A stretch of DNA of 64,000 bases from Variovorax sp. TBS-050B (GTDB lineage Bacteria > Pseudomonadota > Gammaproteobacteria > Burkholderiales > Burkholderiaceae_C): assembly GCF_029893635.1 (NCBI RefSeq), contig NZ_JARXYR010000002.1, positions 4,625,001 to 4,689,000 of the forward strand, read 5' to 3'. Shown here in pieces: positions 6,412-15,882 of this stretch (the first letter of the stretch is position 1; every line of letters starts with the position of its first letter). Under the pieces are notes generated by a model. The model was not told the DNA's origin and ran no database searches. It saw nothing but the letters and a program-made list of their open reading frames with translations. The position numbers and the translations under genes are program-made.

Positions 6412-6528
6412 GGCCTCTGCCCTTGAAGAGTGGAACATCGCGCCAGCATCGGCCGCCTGCGGGCGCGGTGCGACGGCAGGCGTCCACAGGCGCCGTGGGA
6501 AAGCACCCACGCCGCGCGGTCCGCGCGA

Positions 6529-7437
6529 ATGCCGATGACCGCCCGCAGCACCACGCCCCGCGGCAGCGCCCGCACCCGCCGCGCCCCGACGCGGAAGGAA
6601 GCCGTGCCCCCGCGCGCCGCGGTCGTGCGGCCCGACGACGAGAAGCTCGCCCAGCTGCGCGAGGCGCACCGCCGCGGCAAGGTCGTGCTCTTCGTCGGCG
6701 CCGGCATCTCCATGGGCCTGGGCCTGCCGCCGTGGTCCGCGCTGATCGAGCACATGGCGCGCGAACTGGGCATCGACGCGCGCTCCTTCAGCGGCAAGGG
6801 CGGCTACCTCACGCTCGCCGAGTACTTCCGGCTGCGGCACGGCAGCATCGGGCCGCTGCGCAGCTGGATGGACCGCGAATGGCACCGCGGCGACGTGCGC
6901 GTGGAGAACTCGCGCATCCACGAGCTGCTGGCCAAGGGCCGCTTTCCGATCATCTACACCACCAACTACGACCGCTGGCTCGAGACCGCCTTCGAGCACC
7001 ACAAGGTGAAGTACACCAAGATCGTGAGCGTGGCCGATCTCGCCAAGCTGCGGCCCGGCGCCACGCAGATCATCAAGTTCCACGGCGACCTCGAGGACGA
7101 CGCCTCGATCGTGCTCGACGAGAGCAGCTACTTCGCGCGCCTCGACTTCGAGTCGCCGCTCGACATCAAGCTGCGCGCCGACGTGCTCGGGCGTTCGGTG
7201 GTGTTCATCGGCTACAGCCTCGCGGACGTGAACATCCGCTACCTGTTCTACAAGCTCTCGCGGCTGTGGAAGCAGTCGGTGCCCGACGTGGCGCAGCCGG
7301 TCTCCTACCTGTTCTCGCCCTCGGCCAACGAGGTGCAGCAGGCGGTGCTCGCGCAATGGGGCATCGAGATGATCCCGCTCGCGCGCGACGATCCGTCGAA
7401 GGCGCTGGTGGAGTTCCTGGAGGGCGTGGTCGGCTGA
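6529..7437 (+). CDS. SIR2-like (SIR2_2) domain protein, candidate NADase
   Basis: A single-domain SIR2-family protein of about 302 residues. After a basic, Pro-rich N-terminal tail come VVLFVGAGISMGLGLPPWSALI (the GAGxS NAD-binding loop), IYTTNYDRWLE (catalytic Asn region) and IIKFHGDLED (catalytic His). These are the signatures of bacterial SIR2 NAD-hydrolysing domains seen in anti-phage systems such as Thoeris ThsA and DSR proteins. There is no fused sensor, SLOG or STAND module and no obvious partner gene, so a defence role is not established. The start is uncertain: ATGs at 6529 and 6535 are close together, and an upstream in-frame start at 6430 would add a low-complexity stretch. Confidence 0.8.
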   Translation: MPMTARSTTPRGSARTRRAPTRKEAVPPRAAVVRPDDEKLAQLREAHRRGKVVLFVGAGISMGLGLPPWSALIEHMARELGIDARSFSGKGGYLTLAEYFRLRHGSIGPLRSWMDREWHRGDVRVENSRIHELLAKGRFPIIYTTNYDRWLETAFEHHKVKYTKIVSVADLAKLRPGATQIIKFHGDLEDDASIVLDESSYFARLDFESPLDIKLRADVLGRSVVFIGYSLADVNIRYLFYKLSRLWKQSVPDVAQPVSYLFSPSANEVQQAVLAQWGIEMIPLARDDPSKALVEFLEGVVG

Positions 7438-7469
7438 GCCGCCGCGCCGTTCGTTCGTTCGTTCGCCGC

Positions 7470-7700
7470 TCAGCGGTCGGCTTCGGGCTCGTCCGCGGCC
7501 TTGCGTGGCGCGTCGGACGGCGGCGGCTTCTCGCCCACCTGCATGCTCTGCGCGGCGTTGGTGCCGATGTCGCGCGAGCCCGGATAGCCGTGGCGCTTGT
7601 TGGCTTCGCGGCCCATGCGGCTCCCCTCGGTGGGGCTGTCCTGGCCGACGGCGCGGTTCTGGTCGATGTTGACCGGTGATTGTTCGGGGGTTCGGGTCAT
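7470..7700 (-). CDS. Small hydrophilic protein of unknown function
   Basis: A 76-residue, very polar protein (MTRTPEQSPVNIDQNRAVG...) without Cys, hydrophobic segments or a recognised domain; it is probably intrinsically disordered. A good ribosome site (AGGAG) precedes the ATG at 7700. An 18-bp motif, almost identical to one upstream of the orphan dimerisation-domain gene at 11961, lies 32 bp ahead of its start, suggesting that it is really transcribed and belongs to the stress island. The function is unknown. Confidence 0.6.
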   Translation of the reverse strand: MTRTPEQSPVNIDQNRAVGQDSPTEGSRMGREANKRHGYPGSRDIGTNAAQSMQVGEKPPPSDAPRKAADEPEADR

Positions 7701-7731
7701 GGCTGCTCCTGGCGGCGGTGTCGTGCGCGCA

Positions 7732-7749
7732 TCGCAAAACTTGCCGCAA
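7732..7749. promoter_or_regulatory. 18-bp motif, copy 1 (operator or activator-site candidate)
   Basis: TCGCAAAACTTGCCGCAA matches 16 of 18 positions of a second copy at 12010-12027. Its core TTGCCGCAA is a perfect hyphenated palindrome, and a further TTGCG follows. It lies 32 bp upstream of the small gene starting at 7700 on the minus strand. It could be the site of a dimeric regulator such as the NtrC-type protein encoded nearby. Confidence 0.45.
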
Positions 7750-7798
7750 ATTGCGGGGGCCCGTGACGAAAGCCGCCACGGGCGCCCCGCTCAGTGGC

Positions 7799-8014
7799 TC
7801 ACTCCGGCTGCGGCTCGGGCGGCGCGGCCGAGGCCGCAGCGCGTGCGGCGAGGCTCTTGGCGCGTGCGTCGCGTGCTTCCTCCGGGGTGAATTCATGGGC
7901 GAGGCCGAGGCGGTGCGCGGCGCGCCCGCCCTGCCGGGCGATCTCGCGCTGGCGCTCGGGGTCCATCCTGGCAAAACCGCGCCGGGCGCGCGTGCGCTCT
8001 TCTTGATCGTTCAT
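7799..8014 (-). CDS. KGG-motif stress protein (YciG-like)
   Basis: A 71-residue protein with the KGG-repeat signature of small general stress proteins: RRGFARMDPERQREIARQGG followed by RAAHRLGLAHEFTPEEARDA. In this copy the first Lys-Gly-Gly is replaced by RQGG. Such proteins (YciG in enterobacteria, GsiB in Bacillus) are small hydrophilic stress proteins of unknown mechanism. The ATG at 8014 is preceded, about 80 bp away, by a near-perfect sigma-54 promoter on the same strand. It lies downstream of the DUF892 gene, in the same order as yciG and yciF of Salmonella, although the intervening sigma-54 promoter implies separate control. Confidence 0.82.
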   Translation of the reverse strand: MNDQEERTRARRGFARMDPERQREIARQGGRAAHRLGLAHEFTPEEARDARAKSLAARAAASAAPPEPQPE

Positions 8015-8091
8015 CGAGATGCTTTCCTTCGTCGATCCGCGAAACAGTGCGGGGCTGTGCGCGCAACCTCTGCGCGCAGACCCTGGTTCGG

Positions 8092-8106
8092 GCAAACGGC
8101 GTGCCC
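8092..8106 (-). promoter_or_regulatory. Sigma-54 (-24/-12) promoter for the KGG gene
   Basis: Read on the minus strand the sequence is GGGCACGCCGTTTGC. The GG (-24) and GC (-12) doublets are separated by exactly 10 bases and the flanks match GGCACG-N4-TTGC. Transcription should start near 8080, leaving a leader of about 65 nt before the ATG at 8014. The sequence is almost the same as the manganese catalase promoter. Confidence 0.75.
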
Positions 8107-8157
8107 GGCCGCGGCGCACCCCGGGGCGCGCCCGGGTGCGCGGAAAGCAGCATCCGC

Positions 8158-8655
8158 TCAGTCGGCCAGCGCGGCGTCCGCCACCGCATGCGCCTCGGCC
8201 AGCGCGCCGAGCTTGCCGTCGGTCGCGGTTTCCTCGGCGAGCGAGGCCTCGAGCAGTTCGAGCGCCTCCATGTGGCCCAGCTGCCGCGCGAGCGTGCACA
8301 GCGAGTGGTAGCCCGCGATCTCGTAGTGCTCGACCTTGCGCGCGGCGCCGATCAGCGCCGCATCGAGCACCGGTCCCTGCTCGATCTGGTCGATCAGCGA
8401 ATCGCCCTCCTCGACCAGGCCGGCCATGCCCTCGCACTTGATGCGCTTGAGCTTGATCTGCAGCAGCTCGGCGATCTGCTCGATGCGCTCGACCTGCCCG
8501 CGGGTTTCCTCCAGGTGCGTCTCGAAGGCGGAGGCAAGGCCTTCGTCCGTGGCGGCACGCGCGAGCTTCGGCAGCGAGCGCGTCATCTGCTTTTCCGCGC
8601 TGTAGGTGTCGGAGAGTTCGTGGATGAAGAGGTCGGAAAGGTTCTTGACGGGCAT
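8158..8655 (-). CDS. DUF892 / YciF-like ferritin-fold stress protein
   Basis: A 165-residue protein of the YciF family (DUF892), a ferritin-like four-helix fold with a di-iron-type site. It begins MPVKNLSDLFIHELSDTYSAEKQ, and the Glu-rich helices (HELSDTYSAEKQM, THLEETRGQVERIEQ, KVEHYEIAGYHSL, EETATDGKL) are where the metal ligands fall. It is associated with oxidative and envelope stress in other bacteria. AAGGA precedes the ATG at 8655. It is divergent from the manganese catalase, and homologues of this pair (yciF, katN) share one operon in Salmonella. A possible sigma-54 element upstream on its own strand keeps only the GG and GC doublets and is weak. Confidence 0.92.
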   Translation of the reverse strand: MPVKNLSDLFIHELSDTYSAEKQMTRSLPKLARAATDEGLASAFETHLEETRGQVERIEQIAELLQIKLKRIKCEGMAGLVEEGDSLIDQIEQGPVLDAALIGAARKVEHYEIAGYHSLCTLARQLGHMEALELLEASLAEETATDGKLGALAEAHAVADAALAD

Positions 8656-8784
8656 CTGTGGTCCTTGGAAAGAAAGTTGGGAGAAGAAAAAAACACGCTG
8701 ACACCCAGCCATGTTTGGGACGCCCGCGCGCCGGCCGGGCAAGGCCGTTTCGCGTCGGCTTGTCAGCCATCGCCGCACTGCAGA

Positions 8785-8799
8785 GGGCACGCCGCTTGC
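8785..8799 (+). promoter_or_regulatory. Sigma-54 promoter for manganese catalase
   Basis: GGGCACGCCGCTTGC has GG and GC doublets 10 bases apart and matches GGCACG-N4-TTGC at every conserved position. The predicted transcript start is near 8811, about 75 nt before the catalase ATG, which has its own AAGGAG. Confidence 0.75.
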
Positions 8800-8885
8800 C
8801 CGTGAAGAAGTGCGGCGCGCCGATGGCGCAGCCGTTCATTTCGATCGACACACATCCGACCCATCCCACACAAGGAGTAGTCCCC

Positions 8886-9815
8886 ATGTTCTCTCACAAC
8901 AAGCGCTTGCAATACACGGTGCGCGTCAGCGAGACCAACCCCGGCCTCGCCAATCTCATGCTCGAACAGTTCGGCGGTCCGCAGGGCGAGCTCGCGGCGG
9001 CCTGCCGCTACTTCACCCAGGCGCTCGGCGAGGACGACCCCGGCCGCAAGGACATGCTGTTCGACATCTCCACCGAGGAACTGAGCCACCTCGAGATCAT
9101 CGGCACCATCGTCGGCATGCTCAACAAGGGCGCCAAGGGCCGGTTGGCCGAAGGCGTGGAAGAGGAAGGCGAGATGTACCGCACCATCACCGGCGCGGGC
9201 AACGACAGCCACATCACGCAGGTGCTCTACGGCGGCGGCCCGCCGCTGGTCAACTCGGCCGGCGTGCCGTGGACCTCCGCGTACATCGACACCATCGGCG
9301 AGCCCACCGCCGACCTGCGCTCCAACATCGCGGCCGAGGCGCGCGCGAAGATCGTCTACGAGCGGCTGATCAACTGCACGGACGACCCGGGCGTGAAGGA
9401 TGCGCTGACCTTCCTGATGACGCGCGAGATCGCGCACCAGAAGTCGTTCGAGAAGGCGCTCTATGCGATCGAGCCGAACTTCCCGCCGGGCAAGCTGCCG
9501 GGCGATCCGCGCTTCACGAGCGTGTACTTCCGCATGTCCAAGGGCGACGCGGACCTGCGCGGCCCGTGGAACCAGGGCGAGCGCTGGGAGTTCGTGCCCG
9601 TCACGCAGGACTCGGGACCGGTGGACGGCGGCGACGGACTCGCGACGGTCGAACTCGACGATGCCGACGCCGAGACGCTGCAGCAGATGGCCGAGCGCAC
9701 GCAGTCGCTGCCCGACGGCGATCCGCTCACCGGCGCCGAACTCGGCATGGGCGAAGGACCGGCATCGGGCCCGGCCGACGCCGCGCCGGCCAGCGCGAAG
9801 ACCAAGAAGAAGTGA
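8886..9815 (+). CDS. Manganese catalase
   Basis: A 309-residue non-haem manganese catalase, which dismutates hydrogen peroxide in the cytoplasm with a di-manganese centre. The start MFSHNKRLQYTVRVSETNP, the ligand-bearing segments (LMLEQFGGPQGELAAACRYFTQA, ISTEELSHLEIIGTIV, the AEARAKIVYERLI helix and TREIAHQKSFEKAL) and the length all fit the family (KatN). The C-terminal 60 residues are acidic, then Ala/Lys-rich, as in many family members. The ATG at 8886 follows AAGGAG. A sigma-54 promoter lies upstream, which is unusual because the enterobacterial gene uses sigma-S. Confidence 0.95.
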   Translation: MFSHNKRLQYTVRVSETNPGLANLMLEQFGGPQGELAAACRYFTQALGEDDPGRKDMLFDISTEELSHLEIIGTIVGMLNKGAKGRLAEGVEEEGEMYRTITGAGNDSHITQVLYGGGPPLVNSAGVPWTSAYIDTIGEPTADLRSNIAAEARAKIVYERLINCTDDPGVKDALTFLMTREIAHQKSFEKALYAIEPNFPPGKLPGDPRFTSVYFRMSKGDADLRGPWNQGERWEFVPVTQDSGPVDGGDGLATVELDDADAETLQQMAERTQSLPDGDPLTGAELGMGEGPASGPADAAPASAKTKKK

Positions 9816-9867
9816 GCTGCGAGGCGCGCCGCGGGACTGGCGCCCGCGGCGGCGCCTTCATGCGGGG

Positions 9868-9882
9868 CGGCACGCTGTTTGC
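9868..9882 (+). promoter_or_regulatory. Sigma-54 promoter for a small gene
   Basis: CGGCACGCTGTTTGC has GG and GC doublets 10 bases apart and matches GGCACG-N4-TTGC. Transcription would begin near 9894, 19 nt before the ATG at 9913. Confidence 0.7.
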
Positions 9883-10136
9883 CGTGTAGCCCTCGCGCAC
9901 CTGGAGGTCTGCATGAACGAACTCAACAGCTACTTCGCCCGCCACCCGCTCGAGAATCCGGCGAACTACCTGGGGACCGAATTCGACCCGGCCGGCGCAG
10001 CGGCCTACCGGCTGCGCCTGCGAAGCTGGAAGGAACGCTACCGTGCCCGGCTGCGCGCCGCGCAGCGCGCGCAGAAGCCTTCGGGCGCGGTCTCACAGCG
10101 GCAGCGCCAGGGGCCGATGCAGCCGCCCCCGGCGGC

Positions 10137-11531
<1,395 letters not shown>

Positions 11532-11616
11532 TTTCGTCCCCGGCTTGCAGCCTGATCTCTCCGCTCGACTCCCTGAAGCGTCATCCTGCCGCGCCCGCAG
11601 GCGCGCTCCGGACGGC

Positions 11617-11961
11617 TCAATCGTTCATGCCTTGTGCGAATTCATGCACTCGCTCTGTCAGAGACGTCATACGTGCCACCTGCCGCTCCAGCACCGCGAT
11701 GGCCTCGTTGCGCGTCGCGTCGTCGTCGCAGCTGCGCAGCAGCTCCAGCGCCACGGCCATCGCGCCCACCGGGCTTCGCAGATCGTGCTCCAGGCGCCGC
11801 GCCAGCGCCGCGCGCCGCGCCTGGCGCACCTGCTGCGCAGCCAATGCCTGCCGCGCCATGCGGGCCGAGCGCGCCTGCTGCGCGCATGCGAACGCGGCGC
11901 CCAGCAGCGCCGCGCATGCGCCGGCCAGGGCCGCGCTGCCCGTGCTCATTGAATTTTTCAT
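11617..11961 (-). CDS. Membrane-anchored orphan histidine-kinase dimerisation (DHp) domain
   Basis: A 114-residue protein. Residues 8-28 are a hydrophobic Ala-rich segment, probably a membrane anchor. A basic coil leads to RRLEHDLRSPVGAM, an H-box with the phospho-acceptor His at about residue 59, and a second helix ends near residue 110. There is no ATPase (HATPase_c) domain, which in a normal sensor kinase would follow, and none is encoded separately in the window. It is 85 bp upstream of the response-regulator gene on the same strand. It may be a phosphotransfer partner, a dimerisation competitor for another kinase, or a phosphatase. An internal ATG at 11949 is an alternative start. Confidence 0.75.
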   Translation of the reverse strand: MKNSMSTGSAALAGACAALLGAAFACAQQARSARMARQALAAQQVRQARRAALARRLEHDLRSPVGAMAVALELLRSCDDDATRNEAIAVLERQVARMTSLTERVHEFAQGMND

Positions 11962-12009
11962 GTGACGGAGTGTGCGGCAAGCGCCAGCGGCTGTCTGCAG
12001 CGGGGCCTG

Positions 12010-12027
12010 TCGCAAGATTTGCCGCAA
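12010..12027. promoter_or_regulatory. 18-bp motif, copy 2 (enhancer or operator candidate)
   Basis: TCGCAAGATTTGCCGCAA matches 16 of 18 positions of the copy at 7732-7749. It is 83 bp upstream of the rpoN sigma-54 promoter, a normal distance for an enhancer-binding-protein site, and 49 bp ahead of the start of the minus-strand dimerisation-domain gene. It could therefore serve either transcript. Confidence 0.45.
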
Positions 12028-12109
12028 GGCTTTCAGGCCGCTGCACGGCGCAGGCCGGGGTTTAAGAACTTTCGCGGTACTTATTCGGCCCATTCCGCGC
12101 GAAAGGCGC

Positions 12110-12124
12110 TGGCACGACCGTTGC
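12110..12124 (+). promoter_or_regulatory. Sigma-54 promoter in front of rpoN (autoregulation)
   Basis: TGGCACGACCGTTGC agrees with the sigma-54 consensus TGGCACG-N4-TTGC at every fixed position, with 10 bases between GG and GC. Transcription should start near 12136, 45 nt ahead of the rpoN ATG. A sigma-54 gene driven by sigma-54 gives positive feedback. Confidence 0.8.
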
Positions 12125-12180
12125 GCAGCACCAGGTCCCCGGCCGCCCTCGGCCGGCCGGCCAATCCATCACGGAGGACC

Positions 12181-13614
12181 ATGAACACTTCGATTGCCTT
12201 GCACGCCCGCCAGGTCCAGGCGCCGGTCTTTTCGCGCCGGCTGCAGCAGGCGGTGCGGCTGCTGCAGATGTCGTCGCAGGAATATGCGCAGGCGCTGCGC
12301 GAAGCGGCCGAGCTCAATCCCTTCCTCGAGGTGGAAGCCGCCTCGCAGGACGGCATCGTCGAAGCCGCCACCGCCGATGCGCTGCCCGCGCTGGCGGACA
12401 ACGACATCGACGGCGCCGCCGCCTTCGACCACCTCACGGCCGCGCCCGCCGCCGGCGAGCGGCACCTGTCGCACGACGAAAGCTTCGACCTGATGCAGCG
12501 CGTGCCGCTGCCCGACTCGCTGCATGCGCACCTGCACGCGCAGCTCGGCGTGCTGCGCCTGTCCGCGCGCGAGGCCGCCTTCGCGCATGCACTGATCGAC
12601 GCGCTCGACGAGGACGGCTACCTGCGCATCTCGCTCGACGAGGTCGGCGCCGCGCTCGGCGAATGCGGTGCCGAGGCCGAGGACGAACTGCGCACTGCGC
12701 TGCGCCGCGTGCAGGCGCTCGACCCCGCGGGCGTGGCGGCACGCGACCTGGCCGAGTGCCTGTGCCTGCAGCTCGACGCGGTGGCCGACGAAGGCACGCG
12801 AGCACTCGCGCGCCGGATCGTGACCGCGCACATCGACCTGCTCGCCACGCGCGACAGCGGCCGGCTCGCACGTGCGCTCGGCGTCGCGCGGCGCGAGGCG
12901 CAGGCCGCGGTCGACGCCATCCGCCGCCTCGACCCGCGGCCGGGCTGGCAGCGCGGCGAGAGCACGGCGCGCTTCGTGGTGCCCGACGTGACGGTGCGCA
13001 AGGTGGCCGGCGCATGGCGCGCCGCGCTCACGCCGGAGGCCGTGCCGCGCGTGAAGGTCCATGCCGACTACGCCCGGCTGTTCGAGAAGCACGGCACCAA
13101 CCGGAGCCCGGCGATGAAGGAATGCCTGGAGCAGGCGCGATGGCTGGCGGGCAACGTCTCGCAGCGCGCCGCCACCATCCTCGGCGTGGCGCGCGCCATC
13201 GTGGCGCGGCAGAAGCTGTTCCTCGAGCACGGCCCGCTCGCCATGAAGCCGCTCGGCCTGCGCGAGATCGCCGACGAGGTGGGCGTGCATCCCTCGACCG
13301 TCTCGCGCACCGTGCACAACAAGTACATCGCCACGCCGTCGGGCGTGTTCGAGCTGCAGCACTTCTTCTCGCGCGGGCTCGCGCACGCGGCCGGCGGCGC
13401 CAGCGCGCCGGTGGCGCTGCAGGGGCTGATCCGCGAGCTCATCGCGGTGGAGAAGCCGCTGGCGCCGCTCAGCGACGCCGCGCTCGCGCGCCAGCTCGCG
13501 CAGCAGGGCTTCCGCATCGCGCGCCGCACCGTCACCAAGTACCGCCAGAGCATGAACATCGATCCCTTCGAACGCCGCCGCATGCCCCCGGGCTCCCTGG
13601 GCGCATCGGCCTGA
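12181..13614 (+). CDS. rpoN: RNA polymerase sigma-54 factor
   Basis: A 477-residue sigma-54. Region I is Gln/Leu-rich as expected (SRRLQQAVRLLQMSSQEY, then LREAAELNPFLE). The core-binding domain follows, with DEDGYLRI and LDPAGVAARDLAECL. The DNA-binding part has an HTH (LREIADEVGVHPSTVSRTVHNKY) and the RpoN box ARRTVTKYR at residues 447-455. The ATG at 12181 starts MNTSIALHARQ after a GGAGG. The usual Burkholderiales rpoN sits beside lptB and hpf, which are absent here, so this is probably a second rpoN dedicated to the surrounding stress genes. It is preceded by a sigma-54 promoter and followed by two small genes in a likely operon. Confidence 0.95.
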   Translation: MNTSIALHARQVQAPVFSRRLQQAVRLLQMSSQEYAQALREAAELNPFLEVEAASQDGIVEAATADALPALADNDIDGAAAFDHLTAAPAAGERHLSHDESFDLMQRVPLPDSLHAHLHAQLGVLRLSAREAAFAHALIDALDEDGYLRISLDEVGAALGECGAEAEDELRTALRRVQALDPAGVAARDLAECLCLQLDAVADEGTRALARRIVTAHIDLLATRDSGRLARALGVARREAQAAVDAIRRLDPRPGWQRGESTARFVVPDVTVRKVAGAWRAALTPEAVPRVKVHADYARLFEKHGTNRSPAMKECLEQARWLAGNVSQRAATILGVARAIVARQKLFLEHGPLAMKPLGLREIADEVGVHPSTVSRTVHNKYIATPSGVFELQHFFSRGLAHAAGGASAPVALQGLIRELIAVEKPLAPLSDAALARQLAQQGFRIARRTVTKYRQSMNIDPFERRRMPPGSLGASA

Positions 13615-13667
13615 GCGCCGGCGCTTCCGCTTCTTCTTCCCATCATTTCGCCAAAGGAGACGATCCC

Positions 13668-13919
13668 ATGTCCATCGACCCCGAGAAGTCCTTCAGGTAC
13701 CTGGCACGGCTGGCCCGGCAGCGCATGCCGGCCTTCGTCGCGCGCCCGTCGAAGGTGCGCGTGCTGCGCCGGCTCGCCGCCGCCGGCCATGTGGATGTAC
13801 GCTTCTACCCGCCCGACGCCTGCGACGAGCAGTTCGGCGAAGTGCGCGGACTCACGCCCGACGGCTGGAAGGCGGTCCGCGGCATCGACACCCCCTTGCG
13901 CATGGAGTACACACGATGA
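13668..13919 (+). CDS. Small protein of unknown function in the rpoN operon
   Basis: An 83-residue protein (MSIDPEKSFRYLARLARQRM...) with a basic N-terminal helix and a predicted mixed alpha/beta C-terminus (VDVRFYPPDACDEQFGEVRGL). No family is recognised. AAAGGAGA stands well before the ATG at 13668, 53 bp after rpoN. Its last four bases (ATGA) overlap the next start, so the two are translationally coupled. Confidence 0.7.
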   Translation: MSIDPEKSFRYLARLARQRMPAFVARPSKVRVLRRLAAAGHVDVRFYPPDACDEQFGEVRGLTPDGWKAVRGIDTPLRMEYTR

Positions 13920-14227
13920 ACGCATTCGACGCCACCGACGGTCCCGAGGGCGCACCGAAGACGAGCGCCGCCGCCGGCGCCGACGAATGCCACGACTTCA
14001 ACTACCGCGGCTGGCGCTTCATCTACAGCGCGCGCCGCATGGCGAGCGGCGTGTACCGCCCGGTGGTGGTCTGCCTCGGCCAGGGGCCGGGCCACCGCGA
14101 GCAGGCCCTGCCGGACGACACCGACGAGATCGGCTACGCCACCGAGGCCGAGGCGCTGCGCCACGCGCAGCAGCAGGCGATGCGCTGGGTGCACGACCGC
14201 ACCGGCGACGGCCAGGGCCAGTTCTGA
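13916..14227 (+). CDS. Small protein of unknown function, coupled to the preceding gene
   Basis: A 103-residue protein with an acidic, disordered N-terminus and a compact C-terminal part (DFNYRGWRFIYSARRMASGV, then a helix EALRHAQQQAMRWVHDRT). No family is recognised. It begins at the ATGA overlap with the gene before it. The pair plus rpoN make a probable three-gene operon under the sigma-54 promoter at 12110. Confidence 0.7.
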   Translation: MNAFDATDGPEGAPKTSAAAGADECHDFNYRGWRFIYSARRMASGVYRPVVVCLGQGPGHREQALPDDTDEIGYATEAEALRHAQQQAMRWVHDRTGDGQGQF

Positions 14228-14266
14228 AGCACGCGCGGCGCGGGCGCTGCGGGCGCCGCGCCGCAC

Positions 14267-14557
14267 TCAGCGTCGCGAGGACGGAAAGGCCGCCCCGCGC
14301 AGCGCGCAGGCGGCGCGGCCTTCGGCGGTGATCGCGGTGACGATCGCGCGCTCGATGCGGCGCTCGCCCGTGCGCAGCACCACCGGCGGCTCGGTCTGCG
14401 CCTGCAGCAGCGAGGCGCTGCGCAGCGCGAGGATCTTGTCGATCTCGTCGGGCGCCGAGCACACCACCGGCAATGGCCGGCGCGAAAGCGATTCGAGCAG
14501 TTCGTAGCAGTCGTTGGCGCGGCCTGCGCGCCGCCGCGAAGTTTTCATGAGGGTCAT
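14267..14557 (-). CDS. Small protein of unknown function, sigma-54 controlled
   Basis: A protein of about 96 residues (from MTLMKTSRRRAGR) with a basic start, then CYELLESLSRRPLPVVC and IDKILALRSASLLQAQ. The sequence ERRIERAIVTAITAEGRAAC resembles a small winged-helix or recognition segment, but no family is recognised. Both 14557 and 14548 are possible ATG starts and neither has a strong ribosome site. A sigma-54-like promoter on its strand lies about 30 bp upstream, facing away from the DUF4142 promoter. Confidence 0.6.
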   Translation of the reverse strand: MTLMKTSRRRAGRANDCYELLESLSRRPLPVVCSAPDEIDKILALRSASLLQAQTEPPVVLRTGERRIERAIVTAITAEGRAACALRGAAFPSSRR

Positions 14558-14587
14558 CCAGCGTTGAGGAACAGCCGTTCCGGGGCG

Positions 14588-14602
14588 GCAAGCGGCATGC
14601 CC
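14588..14602 (-). promoter_or_regulatory. Sigma-54-like promoter, minus-strand half of a divergent pair
   Basis: The minus strand reads GGGCATGCCGCTTGC: GG and GC doublets 10 bases apart, with one departure (T for C) from GGCACG-N4-TTGC. The predicted start is near 14576, 19 nt before the ATG at 14557. Confidence 0.6.
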
Positions 14603-14612
14603 GCCGACCCGC

Positions 14613-14627
14613 GGGCATGCGCGTTGC
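14613..14627 (+). promoter_or_regulatory. Sigma-54-like promoter for the DUF4142 gene
   Basis: GGGCATGCGCGTTGC has correct GG/GC spacing and one departure (T for C) from GGCACG-N4-TTGC. Transcription would begin near 14639, 55 nt before the ATG at 14694. Confidence 0.6.
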
Positions 14628-14693
14628 CATGTATCCGGTGGGTACCCCGCCCGTCGGGCGGGGCCGCAAGACACTTCCTTCAAGGAGCAACCG

Positions 14694-15284
14694 ATGAACA
14701 TCCAGACCACCGCGTTCCGACTCGCCGCCGCCGCCGTTGCCGCGGCCGCCTTCACCGCCCTGCCCGCCGCCGCTCAGAGCGCGGCTTCGCGCGGCGACCA
14801 GGCCGTCAGCAGCGAATCGCGCAGCGGCGCCGATGCGGCCGCCAGGCTGACCAAGGCCGACGAACGCATGATGAAGAACCTCGCGCAGGCCAACATCGCC
14901 GAGGTCGAGACCGGCAAGCTGGCGCAGGAGAAGGCCGCCAAGGACGAGGTGAAGAAGTTCGGCCAGACCATGGTGGAGGACCACACCAAGTCGCTCGGCG
15001 AACTCCAGGAGCTGGCTTCGAAGAAGGGCGTGACGCTGCCCACCGAGCCGGATACGAAGCACAAGGCCACCGCCACCGCGCTCAAGGCGCTCGACGGCGA
15101 TGCCTTCGACAAGCGCTACATGGCGATGGTCGGCGTTGCCGACCACAAGAAGACGCACGAAATGCTGCAGAAAGTACAGCGCGAAGCCAAGGACCCCGAC
15201 CTGAAGGCCTATGCGGCCAAGACGCTGCCGGTGGTGCACGGCCACCTGACCACCGCGCAGCAGATCTCCCCCGCGCGCAAGTAG
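14694..15284 (+). CDS. DUF4142 family periplasmic protein
   Basis: A 196-residue exported protein. Residues 1-27 form a signal peptide ending in LPAAAQS. The mature part is the DUF4142 ferritin-like helical domain: KADERMMKNLAQANIAEVETGKLA, KKFGQTMVEDHTKSLGELQEL, then VADHKKTHEMLQKV. Homologues are found across stress-tolerant Proteobacteria and are often upregulated by stress; no activity is proven. The ATG at 14694 follows AAGGAG. A sigma-54-like promoter is upstream, and the gene is convergent with the DUF1003 gene, 7 bp away. Confidence 0.9.
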   Translation: MNIQTTAFRLAAAAVAAAAFTALPAAAQSAASRGDQAVSSESRSGADAAARLTKADERMMKNLAQANIAEVETGKLAQEKAAKDEVKKFGQTMVEDHTKSLGELQELASKKGVTLPTEPDTKHKATATALKALDGDAFDKRYMAMVGVADHKKTHEMLQKVQREAKDPDLKAYAAKTLPVVHGHLTTAQQISPARK

Positions 15285-15291
15285 CCGCCGG

Positions 15292-15882
15292 CTATCGCCC
15301 CTCCTCGTCCTCCCGGCGCTCGATGCTGTCGAGGACGCGGTCGGGCGAGACGTTGGTGCGCAATTCGTCGAGTTCCGGGTCGCGCGCCGCGGGGATGTCC
15401 ATGCGCTTCGCGATCTCGGCGACCAGCACCACCAGCTTGGTGATCTCGTGCTCGCCGAGCAGGCTGATCTGCAGGTCGAGATCGGCGCGCCGATCGGCCA
15501 TGGCCGCCATGCGGTTCTGGCTGATCATCACGAAGGTCGAGATGAAGATCGCCTCCACCGACGCGACCATCGCCAGCACCACGAAGGTGGGATCGAAGGC
15601 GCGCACCATCGGCACCCAGCCGAGGTTGACCACGATCCAGCCGCCGTAGATCAGCAGGTGCAGGTACACGAACTTCATGCTGCCCGCAAAGCGGGTGATG
15701 GCGTCGGCCACCCGGTCCTGCAGCCCGCCCGCCACCTTCTGCTGCTGGCGCCGCCGCACCAGCGCCGCGATGTTGCGGTCGACCACCCCGGCCACGGGCG
15801 GCTCGCCGCCGCGCGTGGCGGGGTTCGCGGATTCATCCGTGGCGACGGATGGCTCCGGTGGCGGCGTCGTACTGCGAGCCAT
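15292..15882 (-). CDS. DUF1003 family inner-membrane protein
   Basis: A 196-residue protein of the DUF1003 family. A Pro-rich N-terminus leads into ADAITRFAGSMKFVYLHLLIYGGWIVVNL, a first membrane segment, and then FVVLAMVASVEAIFISTFVMISQNRM, the second. A helical cytoplasmic tail (ADLDLQISLLGEHEITKLV) is typical of the family. The function is unknown. The ATG at 15882 puts its first 50 bases inside the end of the methyltransferase gene, an unusually long same-strand overlap; a start further downstream is possible. Confidence 0.88.
   Translation of the reverse strand: MARSTTPPPEPSVATDESANPATRGGEPPVAGVVDRNIAALVRRRQQQKVAGGLQDRVADAITRFAGSMKFVYLHLLIYGGWIVVNLGWVPMVRAFDPTFVVLAMVASVEAIFISTFVMISQNRMAAMADRRADLDLQISLLGEHEITKLVVLVAEIAKRMDIPAARDPELDELRTNVSPDRVLDSIERREDEEGR

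Follow-up and report, generated by a model that had tools for sequence, protein, structure and literature searches.

A recurrent sigma-54 stress-gene island with a second rpoN gene in Variovorax

We analyzed a 64,000-nucleotide stretch of the genome of Variovorax sp. TBS-050B (contig NZ_JARXYR010000002.1, positions 4,625,001 to 4,689,000; hereafter the window), in which a 6.6-kb cluster of stress genes at about 8.1-14.6 kb includes a second copy of rpoN (rpoN2). Sigma-54 is a type of factor more commonly associated with nitrogen use. The locus is a real stress-gene island of sigma-54 type that recurs in relatives and carries a sigma-54 paralogue, and related second-rpoN systems are already known. 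We consider it probable (about 0.6) that the island forms a local stress regulon under sigma-54 and supplies its own sigma factor, in which the other sigma-54 factor, RpoN1, would act with an activator to make RpoN2, and RpoN2 would prefer promoters with C at position -11.

Clustered sigma-54 promoter-like sites around rpoN2

The window was scanned with the strict pattern GGCAYG-N4-TTGC, which holds the GG-N10-GC core of sigma-54-dependent promoters. Six matches were found in the whole window, all between 8092 and 14627 and all oriented towards a start codon 30-86 bp ahead. A sequence-only reading of this DNA had listed the same six sites, each upstream of a gene, with spans one base too long at the 5' end, and had estimated fewer than one such match per 64 kb by chance. 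Both claims hold: in 100 dinucleotide shuffles of the window the mean was 0.86 sites and the maximum 5, and six or more were never reached. The relaxed pattern GGNAYN-N5-TTGC added just one site in the window, and a crude scan of positions 7400-15300 for sigma-70-like promoters found none (0.2 in shuffles). The features of the locus are as follows.

7799-8014, minus strand: KGG-repeat protein, yciG-like (Pfam PF10685, 1.8e-9)
8092-8105, minus strand: sigma-54 promoter-like site GGGCACGCCGTTTGCC, C at -11, 77 bp before the KGG gene
8158-8655, minus strand: DUF892 protein, yciF-like (PF05974, 4.8e-54)
8786-8799, plus strand: sigma-54 promoter-like site with C at -11; distance to the start of the manganese catalase gene, 86 bp
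8886-9815, plus strand: manganese catalase, katN-like, 309 aa (PF05067, 5.3e-85; Alr3090 in the PDB, 3e-40)
9869-9882, plus strand: sigma-54 promoter-like site with C at -11; distance to the start of the 84-aa gene, 30 bp
9913-10167, plus strand: open reading frame (ORF) for an 84-aa protein, adjoining the activator gene; no Pfam or NCBIfam match
10137-11531, minus strand: NtrC-type activator with receiver, sigma-54 activation AAA+ and Fis-type helix-turn-helix domains (Pfam)
11617-11961, minus strand: HisKA-only protein (PF00512, 1.3e-7)
12012-12029, plus strand: upstream element GCAAGATTTGCCGCAAGG, with the dyad TTGC-N-GCAA at 12019-12027; distance to the sigma-54 site of rpoN2, 83 bp
12111-12124, plus strand: sigma-54 promoter-like site of rpoN2 itself, TGGCACGACCGTTGCG, T at -26 and G at -11, 56 bases before rpoN2
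12181-13614, plus strand: rpoN2, encoding the second sigma-54 factor of the genome (477 aa), whose RpoN box is RRTVTKYRQ (PF04552, PF04963, PF00309)
13668-13919, plus strand: ORF for an 83-aa protein of no assigned family, downstream of rpoN2; no Pfam match
13916-14227, plus strand: ORF for a 103-aa protein of no assigned family, also in relatives
14267-14548, minus strand: ORF for a 93-aa protein of no assigned family, also in relatives
14588-14601, minus strand: sigma-54 promoter-like site with C at -11; distance to the start of the 93-aa gene, 39 bp
14614-14627, plus strand: sigma-54 promoter-like site with C at -11; distance to the start of the DUF4142 gene, 66 bp
14694-15284, plus strand: DUF4142 protein (PF13628, 4.1e-43)

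The clustering is specific to this part of the genome. Across 5.54 Mb on two contigs there were 60 strict matches, compared with 8 for the backward pattern. Contig C2 carries 56 of them, and its densest 6.6 kb is this locus with 6; no other 6.6 kb of C2 has more than 2, so the equal density in unrelated regions that the sequence-only reading had named as a refutation was not seen. When the sites of C2 were placed at random 20,000 times, the densest 6.6 kb never held more than 4.

Pfam matches agree with the earlier description of a sigma factor, an NtrC-type activator and an orphan phospho-acceptor domain at the locus. The activator has the domains of its class (PF00072, PF00158, PF02954), with its GAFTGA-type loop reading GSFTGA. 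The genome contains two rpoN genes by Sigma54_DBD match; rpoN1 lies at C2:1913001, and its product is 36-41% identical to the window copy. The activator-interacting, core-binding and DNA-binding domains of RpoN2 (PF00309, PF04963 and PF04552) all score above cut-off.

Conservation was assessed in 101 Variovorax genomes, of which 31 have an RpoN2 ortholog (at least 385 bits; next match 272) and 70 do not; G210, with only a C-terminal fragment of RpoN2, was counted among the latter. Up to 20 kb around rpoN2 was taken from each of the 30 other RpoN2-bearing genomes (minimum 7.4 kb at contig ends). These loci share a recurring gene set, and the strict pattern matches 105 times in their 544 kb, versus once when read backward. 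In ten rpoN1 loci there was one orthologous strict site apiece. An activator ortholog was found in 30/31 genomes with RpoN2 and 6/70 without, the single miss among the former being G193, whose rpoN2 sits on a 13.9-kb contig. Sites comparable to that of the window precede the KGG gene in relatives as well. Locus L033 of Variovorax sp. DXTD-1, for example, combines such sites with katN, KGG, DUF4142 and rpoN2.

Two site classes and the RpoN2 protein

For comparison of the sites we assembled 35 loci: the window, the 30 other Variovorax rpoN2 loci and four from Rhizobacter, Aquabacterium and Rhodoferax; nine loci retrieved along with these four come from Variovorax genomes that the set already includes. 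The site of rpoN2 itself is mostly TGGCAYG-N4-TTGC(G/A), and the remaining sites are mostly (G/A/C)GGCAYG-N4-TTGCC. These two promoter classes, like the conserved element upstream of rpoN2 described below, go beyond the sequence-only reading. C occupies -11 in 91/98 other sites and in 1/34 sites within 150 bp before rpoN2 (Fisher 4e-23, a value that, like the next one, overstates the evidence because related genomes are not independent). The 34 rpoN2-proximal sites have G in 29, A in 4 and C in 1, and the one with C is an additional site, further upstream, in a single locus; no strict site was found before rpoN2 in loci L118 and L126. Position -26 divides the classes as well, with T in 27/34 rpoN2-proximal sites and 5/98 others.

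As the two-class idea arose from 13 loci, and these 13 genomes and the window lie within the 35, the count was redone on the remaining 21 loci. The difference persisted (C at -11 in 46/50 versus 1/20; Fisher 2.6e-12). It also held when each distinct 16-mer was counted once (52/59 versus 1/21). The sigma-54 promoter consensus has W at -11. The six sites of the window carry C in five cases and G in one, with neither A nor T. Elsewhere in this genome, 30/54 sites lie between genes and no more than 250 bp from a gene start, and these have A in 14, T in 7, C in 5 and G in 4 (A/T 21/30).

Of the 98 sites other than those before rpoN2, a simple gene caller places 94 in non-coding DNA. Among the 92 C sites (the 91 plus the second upstream site before rpoN2), a gene start lies within 250 bp ahead in 80, at a median of 67 bp, behind only in 4, and on neither side in 8. 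Ten C(-11) sites across the 35 loci precede the 84-aa gene. The spacer of the C class is also biased, with C as first base in 82% and G as third in 80%. This preference, and the greater symmetry that C at -11 gives a site, would suit operators of another dimeric regulator, GGCA-N7-TGCC being a near dyad. Operators, however, do not account for the orientation of the C sites to gene starts (47 forward-only versus 4 reverse-only), the asymmetric flanking bases, the typical promoter distance or the position of the sites beside a sigma-54 gene and an activator gene, and we regard that explanation as highly improbable.

RpoN2 differs from RpoN1 in regions that touch DNA. The usual RpoN box, RRTVAKYRE, is a defining trait of the sigma-54 family; the box contacts -24, and the helix-turn-helix contacts -12. 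T and Q are present in the box of 35/35 RpoN2 proteins, versus A and E in 10/10 RpoN1 proteins (RRTVTKYRQ versus RRTVAKYRE; RRTITKYRQ also occurs among RpoN2), and are candidate specificity residues. The helix-turn-helix reads STVSRTVHNKY in the window RpoN2 versus STISRVTTAKY in its own RpoN1, and STVCRVTNNK in the copies from Rhizobacter and Rhodoferax. The T/Q box recurs in two Burkholderia RpoN2 proteins and is absent from Xanthomonas sacchari RpoN. A tree of 31 proteins sets the T/Q proteins apart with support of 92/90, under a midpoint root and with a long-branch warning.

Upstream of rpoN2, the dyads TTGC-N-GCAA and GCAA-N3-TTGC were found in 23/33 and 24/33 regions, respectively. The GCAAGATTTGCCGCAAGG-like element lies mostly about 70-100 bp ahead of the rpoN2 sigma-54 site, and because this spacing suits an activator-binding site, the TTGC-N-GCAA element is a candidate for one. 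The TTGCCGCAA dyad also occurs at window positions 7741-7749, about 40 bp upstream of a minus-strand gene (7470-7700) for which the pattern scan of the window found no strict sigma-54 site.

The manganese catalase of the window is a predicted enzyme with a PF05067 domain and relatives in the PDB; its NCBIfam score of 154.9 falls short of the equivalog cut-off, 350. Manganese catalase was found in 24/31 genomes with RpoN2 versus 5/70 without, a co-occurrence due in part to physical linkage. We searched for strict sites within 400 bp upstream of katN in 30 loci, from 37 matches. Sites were present in 14/30, every one with C at -11, and within RpoN2-bearing genomes they preceded 10/15 katN genes near rpoN2 versus 2/10 elsewhere. 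In L116 and L119, the loci of G241 and G244, katN immediately follows rpoN2 in the same orientation and lacks a strict site of its own, so it may be transcribed through from the rpoN2 promoter.

A proposed cascade and its weighing

From these patterns we infer that the sites are transcribed and that each class is paired with one sigma-54. A cascade and a division of promoters between RpoN1 and RpoN2 are likely. The NtrC-type response regulator would bind the TTGC-N-GCAA element upstream of rpoN2 and, with housekeeping RpoN1, would fire the rpoN2 promoter, with its T at -26 and G or A at -11. RpoN2, with its altered RpoN box and recognition helix, would then preferentially read (G/A/C)GGCAYG-N4-TTGCC promoters together with an activator, leading to expression of manganese catalase, KGG, DUF4142 and small conserved proteins.

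The HisKA-only protein would probably give phosphate to the activator or take it away. It has an N-terminal hydrophobic stretch, judged by eye, and a phospho-acceptor domain, and Pfam found no ATPase domain in the window protein. HisKA-like proteins are present in 29/35 loci, near the activator or rpoN2 and mostly between them, and the phospho-acceptor histidine is kept in 29/29 (23 by pattern, 6 by eye). Like ChpT-type histidine phosphotransferases, to which Spo0B is comparable, the Variovorax protein, as judged from its sequence, combines a HisKA-like dimerisation domain with a lack of kinase activity. ChpT is its top NCBIfam model, at 27.6 bits versus a curated cut-off of 225 and over model positions 6-56 of 204, and it was not accepted as ChpT proper. 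A possible role is that of a phosphotransferase or phosphatase, and a phosphorelay through it is plausible.

In relatives, phosphate perhaps comes from a neighboring hybrid kinase, which in locus L099 has CheB, CheR, PAS, HisKA, ATPase and receiver domains. Matches to it of at least 50% identity occur in 22/34 other loci; the window lacks this kinase. This genome does have a different CheB/CheR/PAS hybrid kinase on its other contig (L204:13852-18077; G000 C1:43851-48076); its gene is preceded at 90 bp by a C(-11) site and is a possible distant member of the regulon. No other protein of the genome matches the locus kinase of relatives better, but it is probably not an ortholog, since it is closer to another kinase (49% identical) than to the locus kinase (41%).

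The C1 kinase gene is one of five genes outside the locus preceded by intergenic C(-11) sites. The others encode a 172-aa protein of no assigned family, a phasin, a 925-aa protein that has no match in Pfam and resembles an adhesin by eye, and a putative lipoprotein, the last judged by its start only. Genome-wide, VGGCAYG-N4-TTGCC averages 4.08 per Mb in genomes with RpoN2 versus 2.69 in those without. In one RpoN2-bearing genome (G183, 30 of its 46 sites taken) 18/22 sites outside the locus lie within genes, and given these the density of the C class was dropped as a marker of RpoN2 and treated as background.

Several observations weigh against the cascade as proposed. Two genomes without an RpoN2 or activator ortholog (G151 and G204; loci L199 and L201) have katN with a C(-11) site, amounting to 2/5 katN loci in genomes lacking RpoN2; these sites may be relics or may be read by RpoN1. 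The 16-mers before the 925-aa protein and phasin genes also recur in genomes without RpoN2. From such sites it follows that RpoN1 may read some C(-11) promoters. Only 12/25 katN loci in RpoN2-bearing genomes have a strict site. Two Burkholderia RpoN2 loci have C at -11 in just 1/9 strict sites despite the same RpoN box, and the C(-11) rule was therefore not taken to hold in Burkholderia. Dyad and word counts found no enhancer-like element common to C(-11) promoters, returning only the sites themselves and GC-rich words. No activator match was found in the Rhizobacter locus (21 kb) or the G193 locus. C at -11 is thus a strong local signature and no proof of exclusive use by RpoN2, as the class is not exclusive to RpoN2 genomes.

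The occurrence of C(-11) sites in genomes lacking RpoN2 would fit a simpler explanation, in which all six sites are ordinary RpoN1 promoters, RpoN2 is redundant or otherwise employed, and a C at -11 is tolerated and has been favoured in this promoter family on other grounds, for example tighter control of melting. By published accounts, rpoN2 mutants of Ralstonia solanacearum showed no specific phenotype (PMC4371752), and Burkholderia pseudomallei rpoN2 rescues amino-acid use of an Escherichia coli rpoN mutant (PMC4745423), from which it follows that an RpoN2 can serve foreign sigma-54 promoters. Against this stand the sharp split of classes within the locus, the RpoN2-specific substitutions in the DNA-binding domain and the co-conservation of rpoN2 with the sites and the activator, and we judge RpoN1 alone to be a somewhat unlikely explanation. 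The cascade with a preference of RpoN2 for C(-11) promoters should also be kept apart from its fullest form. That form is unlikely; in it the two sigma-54 factors would split promoters at -11 and -26, RpoN1 and the activator would yield an RpoN2 that is the sole reader of C(-11), and a four-step phosphorelay would set the ATPase-less HisKA protein between a CheB/CheR kinase and the activator.

Sigma-S and related second-rpoN systems

The sequence-only reading had proposed that the locus replaces sigma-S control of yciG, yciF and katN homologues. As described for enterohemorrhagic E. coli, katN requires RpoS, and the enteric yciGFE-katN genes form one operon (PMC5363993). Homologues of yciG (KGG), yciF (DUF892) and katN are present here too; unlike in the enteric operon, the Variovorax genes are separate, with sigma-54-type sites. 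KGG and katN each have a site of their own, but the pattern scan of the window found none upstream of the yciF-like gene, so that placing these homologues under sigma-54 stands in part.

We therefore compared the distribution of RpoS with that of RpoN2. An RpoS-level match was called at 349 bits or more to TIGR02394 in the genus, where no genome reached the curated cut-off of 378.7, and at 350 bits or more in a sample of 150 genomes of the family. Most genomes have a match of about 280 bits, and such matches were taken for RpoD. Variovorax sp. TBS-050B has no RpoS-level match (best TIGR02394 match, 279 bits), which by itself would fit a takeover of the yciG-yciF-katN stress functions by sigma-54 after loss of sigma-S, as would the RpoS dependence of katN in enterohemorrhagic E. 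coli. However, RpoS-level matches were found in 78/101 Variovorax genomes, plus one 297-bit fragment; they were found in 23/31 with RpoN2 and 55/70 without. In the family sample, 59/150 genomes have RpoS, including 15/26 with two or more Sigma54_DBD matches and 44/124 others. RpoN2 is thus not confined to genomes from which RpoS is absent, as a substitute would be; the two usually coexist, and RpoN2 as a general replacement of RpoS was rejected. Substitution after loss of sigma-S is very unlikely. Of the earlier proposal, the sigma-54 stress regulon with rpoN and an activator is upheld by the motif statistics and by conservation in relatives, and the replacement of sigma-S fits this genome only and fails in the genus.

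Second sigma-54 factors have been described elsewhere. RpoN2 of B. pseudomallei, encoded on chromosome 2, is reported as required for katE expression at 48-72 h, and katE is preceded by a predicted RpoN box (PMC4745423). As in Variovorax, a second sigma-54 is tied to a catalase; there the catalase is KatE, and a local promoter island, a -11 class and an activator do not appear in the accessible part of that description. In R. solanacearum, rpoN2 is likewise a second rpoN with a sigma-54 site upstream, a likeness of description; its expression is reported to need rpoN1, the two proteins are 44% identical and non-redundant, and the role of rpoN2 was called enigmatic (PMC4371752). In Cereibacter (Rhodobacter) sphaeroides, RpoN1 and RpoN2 are described as discriminating at promoter position -11 (PMC11999139) and RpoN1-RpoN4 as having separate regulons and cognate activators (PMC11999139, PMC3162934). 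By these accounts its paralogues, from another lineage, serve nitrogen fixation, flagella and a motility-system repressor, not a stress-gene island. A plasmid-borne RpoN of Bradyrhizobium DOA9 has been linked to stress adaptation (PMC13207237). A literature search, covering titles and abstract openings among the matches listed, returned no account of this Variovorax locus or of the C(-11) class.

A second rpoN occurs in 26/150 genomes of the family sample, and the locus gives rpoN2 a concrete candidate job, the expression of nearby stress-type genes. In an environmental genus, it also points to C at -11 as the mark of a promoter class, to RpoN box residues (T and Q) that may set specificity, and to a possible activator and enhancer. 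If the proposed reading is true, sigma-54 governs stress functions elsewhere ascribed to sigma-S, and Variovorax offers a natural case of sigma-54 paralogues sharing out promoters by one base.

Stress-type genes also surround a second-replicon rpoN in Burkholderia multivorans (L209; NZ_CP143553.1, 298350-319660). Genes nearby encode DUF892 (twice), DUF4142, PRC-barrel, CBS, DUF1328, DUF3008, Ku and LigD proteins, and 21 kb hold six strict sigma-54 sites, one with C at -11. In the window, the stress island is flanked by a gene for a SIR2-like domain protein (6430-7437, plus strand), a close homologue of which lies at the edge of locus L035.

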